From contig NZ_SRZX01000004.1 of assembly GCF_004792665.1 (NCBI RefSeq), positions 124,001 through 188,000 on the forward strand: 64,000 nt of DNA. The letters run 5' to 3'. Shown piece after piece: positions 1-4,987 of the stretch (the first letter of the stretch is position 1; each line of letters begins with the position of its first letter). The notes beneath the pieces were generated by a model. The model was not told where the DNA came from. It did not search any database and worked only from the letters and a program-made list of their open reading frames with translations. The position numbers and the translations under genes were made by a program. Origin of the DNA: Marinobacter orientalis. Lineage in GTDB: Bacteria; Pseudomonadota; Gammaproteobacteria; Pseudomonadales; Oleiphilaceae.

Positions 1-971
1 TTACCCACGCACTCACCGTCTTTCTCCAGCGCCCAGTATCTGGTGTTAGGGCCCGACAGCGCGGGACCGTCGATCACCAGACCAACGTGCTTGCGAGAGA
101 CACCTTGTTCACGGATACGCCTGAGTGCAGCCTTACCAATGAAATCAGCCTCCATATCCAGCTCAACCAGTCGATCAAGGCCTAGTTCATACGGATTGGT
201 ATTGATGTCCATATCGGCGTGGTAGGACAGCATTCCGCCTTCGATACGGCGAATTGTCGATGTATGACCCGGTTTGAGCCCAAATGGAGCACCTGCAGCC
301 ATGATCTTCTCCCACAACTCTTCACCTTTCGAAGCGTCCTGCAGGTAGAGCTCATAGCCCAGCTCGCTCGACCAGCCGGTGCGGGAAATGATCAGAGGAA
401 TGCCGTCGAGCTCACAGTCGCGTAGCCAGAAGTAGCGGAGATCGGTAATGCTCTCACCGAACAGGGTTTTCATGATCTCGCCGGACTTCGGGCCCTGCAG
501 CTGAAGCGGAGATACTTCCGGTTCGCGGATTTGCACGTCCAGCCCAGCGTTGATGGCGACACCCTGGGCCCACAGCAAAATGTCGCTGTCAGCCAGGGAG
601 ATCCAGAAGCGATTTTCCTCGAGACGCAGCAGGACAGGATCGTTCAGAATCCCGCCCTCGGCATTTGTAATAAGCACATATTTACACTGGCCGACAGCAC
701 ATTTTGAAAGATCCCGTGGAGTAAGCAGTTGCGCAAACTGTGCGGCATCGGGGCCAGTGATCTCGACCTGGCGCTCTACGGCTACATCACAGAGAATGGC
801 GTCGTTGACCAGGTTCCAGAAATTCTGTTCGGGATCACCAAAATCGCGAGGGATATACATGTGGTTATAGACCGAGAAGCCATTCGCGCCCCAGCGCACG
901 GTTGCCTCGAAATAGGGAGATTTGCGGATTTGTGTTCCAAAGCCAAATTCTTTCTGTTCGTGCTTACCCAT
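1..971 (-). CDS. GcvT-fold folate-dependent methyltransferase, DmdA-like (partial, C-terminus off the left edge)
   Basis: The reading frame opens at an ATG at 971 behind an AGAGGA ribosome site and runs through the left edge, giving 323 codons. The protein has the aminomethyltransferase (GCV_T) fold. Segments such as SVYNHMYIPRDF, CDVAVERQVEI, LLTPRDLSKCAVGQC and GGILNDPVLLRL resemble, from memory, dimethylsulfoniopropionate demethylase DmdA more than glycine-cleavage GcvT. DmdA moves a methyl group from DMSP to tetrahydrofolate. The neighbouring purU, a folate one-carbon enzyme sharing the same upstream element, fits a role in methyl-group catabolism. Other GcvT-family demethylases (sarcosine, dimethylglycine) are possible, so the substrate is inferred. 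The start and fold are secure. Confidence 0.7.
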   Translation of the reverse strand, partial: MGKHEQKEFGFGTQIRKSPYFEATVRWGANGFSVYNHMYIPRDFGDPEQNFWNLVNDAILCDVAVERQVEITGPDAAQFAQLLTPRDLSKCAVGQCKYVLITNAEGGILNDPVLLRLEENRFWISLADSDILLWAQGVAINAGLDVQIREPEVSPLQLQGPKSGEIMKTLFGESITDLRYFWLRDCELDGIPLIISRTGWSSELGYELYLQDASKGEELWEKIMAAGAPFGLKPGHTSTIRRIEGGMLSYHADMDINTNPYELGLDRLVELDMEADFIGKAALRRIREQGVSRKHVGLVIDGPALSGPNTRYWALEKDGECVG

Positions 972-1049
972 TTTTTCGTCCTCTTATTTTGCAACCCCGT
1001 CCCTGTTCCTGGCCGTGACACTGCGCACAACCAAAAACCCGGCACCATG

Positions 1050-1155
1050 TAAATGATATGAGGAACTCGCCGAAAACGGGGCCTAAACAGAAGCCACAAA
1101 AGCAGGTATCAGGACTATTTTTCCGCGTCTTTTAGACTGTTTGGCCTAAAGCCGG
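1050..1155 (-). promoter_or_regulatory. 106-bp conserved upstream element, copy 1 (before the dmdA-like gene)
   Basis: This stretch aligns without gaps to 2089-2194 at roughly 80% identity counted by eye. It lies 78 bp upstream of the dmdA-like start, on the same side as the other copy relative to purU. Read on the minus strand it holds GGCCAAACAG and, downstream, CTGTTTAGGCC, which pair with one bulged A. It also holds a small CCG-UUUU-CGG hairpin and a conserved 3' end CCTCATATCATTTA. It may be a shared operator/promoter or a structured RNA leader; the sequence alone does not decide. Confidence 0.7.
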
Positions 1156-1167
1156 ACCTGATAATCT

Positions 1168-2040
1168 CTAGTGTCCGGGAAAGACAACAGTTTTGTTACC
1201 GTTGAGGAAACACCGTCGCTCAATATGCAGCTTGATCGCCTTTACCAGGGCGAGGCGTTCAGTATCACGTCCTTTTGCTACCAGGAGCTCCGGCGTGTAG
1301 GTATGATCCACCGCCTCCACTCCCTGGGTGATGATCGGACCTTCGTCGAGAACTTTACTTACGTAATGCGCAGTCGCTCCTACCAGCTTCACTCCTTTGT
1401 CATAGGCCTGATGGTAGGGCTTTGCGCCCTTGAACCCCGGCAGCAGCGAGTGGTGGATGTTGATGGCACGCCCGTGCAATTTTTTGCACATATCGTCGGA
1501 CAGTACCTGCATGTAGCGCGCCAGCACGACCAGGTCAGCATCGACTTTCTGGATGATCTCCCATATCCCGGCTTCCTGCTGCGACTTTGTTTCCTCAGTA
1601 ATGGGCAGGTGGTAGTAGGGGATGTCGTGCCAGTCAGCCAGCCCTTTCAGGTCCGGGTGGTTGGATATGATAGCCGGAATCTCGATATTGAATGCGCCGG
1701 TACGGTAGCGATGCAGAATATCCTCCAGGCAATGGTCATACTTTGATACCAGAATAACCAGCCTGTCGGGAATCGATAAATCCCGCAGCTCCCATTCCGT
1801 GTCAAAGGCTGTAGCCCGGTCGGCGAACTGACTCCGCAGGCTTTCTTCGGAAAATTCGCCACCGCCAATATAATAAAACTCTACCCGGAAGAAAAACCGT
1901 TCAACATCATTGTCGTCAAAAGTATGTATTTCATAGGCATAACACTCATGCCTGTATAAGCATCCAATGATCAGATCAAGCACACCCAGTTTGCTACCCG
2001 AGCTTCCGGCAAGGATATAGGTTTTTTTATTGGTATCCAT
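1168..2040 (-). CDS. purU: Formyltetrahydrofolate deformylase PurU
   Basis: The enzyme hydrolyses 10-formyl-THF to formate and THF, balancing folate one-carbon pools and supplying formate. At 290 residues it has the usual family length: an N-terminal ACT-like region (about 5-85) and a formyltransferase domain (about 92-280). The active-site segment NIHHSLLPGF lies at 194-203, followed by GATAHYV (221-227) and LDEGPIITQ (231-239), which carries the catalytic Asp. The N-terminal regulatory part is divergent. Its start at 2040 is 48 bp downstream of the second copy of the 106-bp element. With the DmdA-like methyltransferase next door, it may drain formyl-THF made by oxidation of methyl groups (inferred). 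Confidence 0.93.
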   Translation of the reverse strand: MDTNKKTYILAGSSGSKLGVLDLIIGCLYRHECYAYEIHTFDDNDVERFFFRVEFYYIGGGEFSEESLRSQFADRATAFDTEWELRDLSIPDRLVILVSKYDHCLEDILHRYRTGAFNIEIPAIISNHPDLKGLADWHDIPYYHLPITEETKSQQEAGIWEIIQKVDADLVVLARYMQVLSDDMCKKLHGRAINIHHSLLPGFKGAKPYHQAYDKGVKLVGATAHYVSKVLDEGPIITQGVEAVDHTYTPELLVAKGRDTERLALVKAIKLHIERRCFLNGNKTVVFPGH

Positions 2041-2088
2041 AAACCTGGTCCCTTAAGAATTGAATTCGCCAATTTATGCTTCAGTCGC

Positions 2089-2194
2089 TAAATGATATGA
2101 GGAACCTGCCGGAAACGGAGGCTAAACAGAGGCTATAAATATGGATATCAGGACTATTTTCCTGCGGCTTTTGGACTGTTCAGGCTAAAACCGG
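2089..2194 (-). promoter_or_regulatory. 106-bp conserved upstream element, copy 2 (before purU)
   Basis: Gapless partner of 1050-1155. On the minus strand the arms are GCCTGAACAG and CTGTTTAGCC. They pair over eight positions including a G-U pair, so both arms changed relative to copy 1 while pairing was largely kept. Further shared features are AATAGTCCTGATA, a CCG-UUUC-CGG hairpin and the end TTCCTCATATCATTTA. The rest of 2041-2347 holds no gene, only this element and the tRNA-Gly terminator. Confidence 0.7.
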
Positions 2195-2297
2195 GAATGG
2201 CGAGAGTGCAAAAGGTAATCAGGGGGTATCAGAGAAACCGGCCAAAGCGAGAGTGCGCGGGAATGCCAGGCTGACGGTGAAGCCCGGAGGCTTCGCT

Positions 2298-4745: not shown

Positions 4746-4907
4746 TTACTGCTTGCGGCCATCATGTTCTGGTGACCCGGAATGCCTGCCATGATCGCCA
4801 AGCTGATGCTTTGAGTCCTTCAGTACAAAAATTCCCACGCCGATAAAAAATCCTACCATCAGTAGAACGGTCACAATGCCTGCGATAACAACTGCGTCGG
4901 TATACAT
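4746..4907 (-). CDS. 53-residue single-span membrane protein, FNR/Anr-controlled
   Basis: A short gene with ATG at 4907 behind GGAGAGTAAGGCT. The peptide begins MYTDAVVIAGIVTVLLMVGF, and one hydrophobic segment runs from about 6 to 30. A polar, His-rich tail (KDSKHQLGDHGRHSG...) follows. It loosely resembles small proteins of the DUF3149 type; I cannot name it securely. The FNR-type site with a correctly spaced -10 directly upstream supports real expression under low oxygen. Small membrane proteins with such control often assist terminal oxidases (CcoM and CydX are examples), but that role is only a guess here. Confidence 0.72.
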   Translation of the reverse strand: MYTDAVVIAGIVTVLLMVGFFIGVGIFVLKDSKHQLGDHGRHSGSPEHDGRKQ

Positions 4908-4945
4908 AGCCTTACTCTCCTGAACAGTTCCGATTAACTGTTTTC

Positions 4946-4987
4946 AGATTACGCTCACGGCCCCGACAGCATATTGATCTGAGTCAA
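4946..4987 (-). promoter_or_regulatory. Class II FNR/Anr-dependent promoter
   Basis: TTGATCTGAGTCAA (4974-4987) matches the FNR/Anr consensus TTGAT-N4-ATCAA at nine of ten fixed bases. On the minus strand a -10 hexamer TAATCT (4951-4946) begins 29.5 bp from the box centre. That places the box at -41.5, the classic activating position. The expected start is about 30 bp before the small membrane-protein gene. Confidence 0.75.

Follow-up and report, generated by a model that had tools for sequence, protein, structure and literature searches.

Paired elements upstream of purU and a DmdA-like gene in Marinobacter orientalis are probably operator arrays and promoters for an Lrp/AsnC-family regulator

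Targets of Lrp/AsnC-family regulators can carry periodically repeated sites, and the accessible portion of PMC8707732 gives 30-31 bp among the reported periodicities. The element described here resembles these promoters and differs from them in having its own motif, CaGaCCGATCGGtCtG, and a conserved fixed offset to a -10 box. A second close system is PutR-putA of Caulobacter crescentus, which like other cluster-adjacent Lrp/AsnC regulators has, in the available parts of the sources, a local regulator gene beside a catabolic gene that it controls. A regulator gene likewise lies beside a catabolic gene in our cluster, and we coined the label LrpD for this Lrp/AsnC-family member; however, the target pathway is different and lrpD often stands in tandem with its target or lies downstream of it, and is not divergent from it. 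The third comparison is with DmdA, the DMSP demethylase. The best solved relative of the DmdA-like protein is 3tfh (281 bits, with the next at 157), a Ca. P. ubique protein according to the accessible text of PMC7487153, whereas the DmdA-like members scored (n=6) reach 361.5-385.5 bits and all fall below the NCBIfam cut-off of 410. The kind of control (Lrp/AsnC) is already known, and no description of an Lrp regulator of dmdA-like genes, or of such a regulon, was found in the accessible parts of the open literature searched.

The window referred to throughout is the whole 64-kb stretch of M. orientalis DNA that was analysed. A repeat search of this window recovered two 106-nt copies of the element, at 1050-1155 (copy 1) and 2089-2194 (copy 2), that align gap-free at 80% identity, exactly as the original prediction of a gapless 106-bp duplication of about 80% identity had it. 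Both copies have their sense on the minus strand, with copy 1 upstream of the dmdA-like gene and copy 2 upstream of purU; the minus-strand ATG codons of these genes are at 971 and 2040, respectively. Comparison of copy 1 plus 20 bp flanks with its own genome returned copy 2 at E 2e-21 and the next match at E 0.508, and plasmid records gave no match at E 0.01. Note that copy 1 is 77-78% identical to the copies in a second genome of the genus (G017), so that the window pair, at 80%, is no closer than this; shared constraint is therefore likelier than recent duplication alone, which we rejected as the origin of the pair. The features are as follows, with window coordinates unless L009 is given and with sites named after the palindromic motif.

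1133..1148, minus strand: copy 1 (dmdA-like) site 1, palindromic 16-mer TAGGCCAAACAGTCTA; scores 12.7 bits with the other-locus motif, ranking second in the 64-kb window
1102..1117, minus strand: copy 1 site 2, 31 bp from site 1, with the left half TAGTCC alone kept; full-palindrome score -6.9, half-site conserved in the 18-row alignment
1079..1086, minus strand: copy 1 site 3, half-site TTAGGCCC, spaced 31 bp from site 2 and lying on the expected -35
1053..1058, minus strand: copy 1 predicted -10 box TATCAT, at the fixed offset +59 from site 2; predicted start about 1046 (arithmetic)
2172..2187, minus strand: copy 2 (purU) site 1, palindromic 16-mer TAGCCTGAACAGTCCA; 13.1 bits, top score of the window
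2141..2156, minus strand: copy 2 site 2, of which the left half TAGTCC remains; full-palindrome score -1.2, half-site conserved in the 18-row alignment
2118..2125, minus strand: copy 2 site 3, half-site TTAGCCTC
2092..2097, minus strand: copy 2 predicted -10 box TATCAT; predicted start about 2085 (arithmetic)
1168..2040, minus strand: purU, formyltetrahydrofolate deformylase; TIGR00655 288.5 bits, cut-off 285.95
1..971, minus strand: dmdA-like gene, 3' end beyond the window (whole gene L009:11823-12971); 376.9 bits against NF009133, below the curated DmdA cut-off of 410
L009:10811-11932, minus strand, outside the window: metF-like frame (label by eye)
Outside the window, same strand, after the metF-like frame: folD
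L009:9301-9801, outside the window, same strand, after folD: LrpD, Lrp/AsnC-family gene

The distribution of the element was followed in relatives taken from a protein scan of named genomes, the best 80 matches of which represent 78 loci. Within the genus, only two of the 61 genomes (M. orientalis included) contain the element, M. orientalis and G017, with two copies each. The same two are the only ones with the DmdA-like protein at 94-100% identity, the other genus matches above threshold being 42-44% identical, and among the matches listed the protein is about 91% identical to that of Marinobacterium. The presence of the cluster in 2/61 genus genomes and this identity to Marinobacterium suggest that the cluster (window 1-2200 with L009; G017 and L019) was gained horizontally. 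Profile searches showed that in marine gammaproteobacteria the element recurs, nearly free of indels, before the same set of genes (DmdA-like, purU and one-carbon), so that the look at related genomes called for by the original prediction did find it upstream of homologous genes. Specifically, the DmdA-like gene is preceded by a match in L012-L019 and L021 and by a weak one in L020, and the profile search placed extra copies ahead of purU, of the metF-like gene or of a second dmdA-like gene. Clusters L170, L171, L172, L173 and L174 each have two dmdA-like genes with an element copy of their own, and a third copy in L172 precedes an OsmC-like frame (named by eye). Eighteen elements were used as seeds, 14 from the nine loci L012-L019 and L021 plus two from the window and two from G017, with the weak L020 left out. 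They share a conserved core of about 100 bp in which the one indel is a single-base deletion in L019, and conservation drops directly after a CTCATATYATT box. When 13 genomes were searched with a model of the whole element, only weak matches with E of at least 0.06 were seen outside the cluster (150 of 280-764 candidates scored per genome).

The internal organization of the element was derived from 68 non-seed loci (L022-L089, among the matches listed), all of which entered the pair counts and 65 of which, after near-copy removal, entered the motif search. Expectation maximization with palindromic symmetry imposed, run on the 250 bp upstream of the DmdA-like gene, yielded the motif given above with an LLR of 489, as compared with 65-112 in five shuffled sets that preserved base composition alone and were given 60 starts against 150 for the real set. 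Sites above 6 bits occur in 58/65 non-seed upstream regions, and of the 102 distances from one site to the next in these 65 regions, 64 measure 31 or 32 bp. Using a pair threshold chosen for this analysis (a summed 16 bits or more), pairs were observed at 31 bp in 27/68 regions and at 32 bp in 32/68, which together are 56/68 distinct non-seed regions with repeated sites in helical phase; each of the remaining spacings between 20 and 44 bp gave pairs in no more than 9/68. Among 4346 control windows of the same loci only one other place had such a pair, L026:1109, where it was found on both strands between an lrpD-like gene and folD-purU. As this sole strong control pair lies before folD-purU, the regulon seems to include these genes in an alphaproteobacterium too. 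Note that in the seed columns alone neither the palindrome (4.9) nor the direct repeat of 31 bp (8.3) exceeds the column-shuffle range, so both rest on the non-seed set.

With the regions anchored on site 2, a half-site AGnCC appears at +31 to +37 and a TA at +59/+60. The TA is at +59 in 37/56 rows, with the next offset reaching 9/56, and a TATAAT match in at least four places at +59 is present in 15/56 rows only. The seed elements have a TATYAT-like box at this offset in 17/18 cases (TATGAT in L021), and in L019 the box is TATCCT and lies one base nearer owing to the single-base deletion of this locus. Given a -10 box at +59, simple arithmetic would put the start at about +71, so that the sites would be centred around -95 and -64 and the half-site would span -40 to -33. 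When the motif from these foreign loci was applied to the 64-kb window, site 1 of copy 2 (13.1) and site 1 of copy 1 (12.7) came out on top and nothing else reached 12. Random sequences of the same dinucleotide make-up contain on average 2.3 sites at that score, so it is the ranking of the window sites, not their count, that is telling. Each window copy has one full site and two half-sites (sites 2 and 3).

The LrpD protein matches PF13412, PF13404 and PF01037 above cut-off, covering the Lrp/AsnC helix-turn-helix and ligand domains, and its best solved relative is E. coli Lrp (2gqq); a protein with the domain make-up of this family is therefore encoded together with the target. Using 45% identity as the ortholog threshold (chosen for this analysis), orthologs of 59-95% identity were found in G017, G070 and the ten genomes that L012-L021 come from. 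Of five genus controls that lack the element, four carry only paralogs of 33-35% identity and the fifth has nothing at E 1e-20. Among the matches listed, the array is present in 66/78 loci (59 by pair and 7 by seed profile), and all 66 array genomes have LrpD, 60 of them within the fetched locus and 6 as found by genome search. The 12 array-less loci among these matches comprise eight from genomes without an LrpD ortholog, several of them MAGs, where the search gave either nothing or relatives of 38-39% identity, and four (L024, L040, L044 and L059) where LrpD is present with one site or a sub-threshold pair. The association of array and LrpD over these 78 listed loci has a Fisher p of 2e-8 with kinship disregarded, and on a tree there are two contrasts on well-supported branches (five on all branches) that agree in nearly all pairings and are too few for significance. 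Finally, G070, which is not part of the 78-locus table and has LrpD, contains weak sites (6.3-7.5 bits) 32 bp apart upstream of its dmdA-like gene, at -144, -112 and -80, with the limit that at such laxity weak pairs occur elsewhere too.

The array, its phasing, the -10-like box and the co-occurrence with LrpD are read directly from the sequences; binding by LrpD, wrapping, activation, an effector and the enzyme substrate are what we infer. Overall, we consider it probable that each copy is an LrpD operator array joined to a promoter for demethylation and one-carbon genes, with activation as the most likely outcome. LrpD, encoded in the cluster, would bind the array, probably with a small-molecule effector. 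Sites 31-32 bp apart, or three helical turns, would fall on the same side of the double helix, which is what a wrapping Lrp-type multimer leads one to expect, and the last half-site would cover the -35 region of an element that ends in the predicted -10 box. The LrpD multimer would wrap the array and act on RNA polymerase, most likely activating the DmdA-like demethylase gene and purU, and at other loci metF-like and folD genes as well. Methyl groups removed from the substrate would thereby pass via the folate pool.

The original prediction offered an operator or an RNA switch, and its operator half holds in that phased sites end in a -10 box. A structured RNA leader ahead of both genes (a riboswitch or similar), folding via the long arms and the CCG/CGG hairpin, now appears very improbable. 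The arms can pair in both window copies as claimed, best in different registers, and over the alignment they pair in 84.4% of cells in either register as compared with at most 66.1% for slid versions. Nevertheless, RNAalifold predicted zero pairs in the 18 seed sequences, and the covariation scores of the two registers were equalled by 149/500 and 313/500 shuffles; other register 1 measures were reached by 34 to 76 of 500 shuffles, the values of 34/500 and 46/500 being borderline in favour of a leader. The CCG-loop-CGG hairpin is likewise present in both window copies and pairs in 68.5% of cells over 18 sequences, also a borderline value (37/500 shuffles as high), but two of its three pairs are broken, each in 8/18 sequences, and its covariation was equalled by 130/500 shuffles. 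An Rfam scan of the window at gathering scores gave no match for the element, and a search of 960-2300 up to E 10 likewise gave none, in line with the claim that it resembles no THF, glycine or SAM riboswitch. The window scan matched the PhrS small RNA (RF01673) elsewhere, at 4796-4949 on the minus strand, scoring 71.3 bits where the gathering score is 37. Compared as column profiles, the arms form a conserved inverted repeat (13.3 versus a 95% shuffle level of 10.2; 60 shuffles), and a binding site repeated in both orientations yields such arms without RNA. Moreover, the -10-like box is at the 3' end of the element, and its offset would place the transcription start at or past the downstream edge. 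On these grounds the element does not look like an RNA switch.

If the element is an operator, the identity of its binder and the sign of its effect have to be weighed. That the same array is the target of a different regulator, for example the GcvA-like LysR protein encoded beside some clusters, is in our view unlikely. A LysR gene at least 70% identical to that of L176 is found in three of the 78 loci (L015, L018 and L035, among the matches listed) and LysR-like frames are seen in some longer clusters (partly by eye), but the LysR gene is missing from the fetched flanks (4 kb at most) of most array loci, whereas LrpD is in all 66 array genomes among those matches. Somewhat less doubtful is a reading in which LrpD, bound to the array, keeps the promoter repressed until it is released by an effector. 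In its favour, the third half-site and the expected -35 overlap, and the accessible text of PMC8707732 describes the Lrp/AsnC protein PA2577 as a repressor. Against this, PutR, a cluster-adjacent Lrp-like protein, is an activator in the available part of PMC6168545, and two upstream sites in phase with the -10 would fit activation better. Overall, activation by LrpD would be likelier than repression.

The enzymes of the cluster bear on what such a regulator might sense. The metF-like frame matched no Pfam or NCBIfam model at E 0.001, and the gene is conserved in clusters despite lacking any family match. Genes nearby at several loci code for an acyl-CoA synthetase, an enoyl-CoA hydratase and an OsmC-like protein, which are reminiscent of DmdB and DmdD, but the neighbour ligase scores 305.8 bits against the methylthiopropionyl-CoA ligase model, the cut-off of which is 822. 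The accessible text of PMC9327192 has dmdB present and dmdA absent in Amphritea, yet Amphritea atlantica (L018) contains the DmdA-like gene, and the substrate of the DmdA-like protein is for this reason unsettled. We tentatively suggest, at less than even confidence, that LrpD governs an undescribed regulon, present in both alpha- and gammaproteobacteria, that serves a DmdA-like demethylase acting on a new methyl donor, and that LrpD may sense this methylated compound and not an ordinary amino acid. The common operator links purU and folD with the demethylase as one C1 regulon. The predicted regulator-operator pair thus offers a handle, in the form of a testable inducer screen, on a DmdA-like family with an unsettled substrate, and an inducer of LrpD would point to that substrate.
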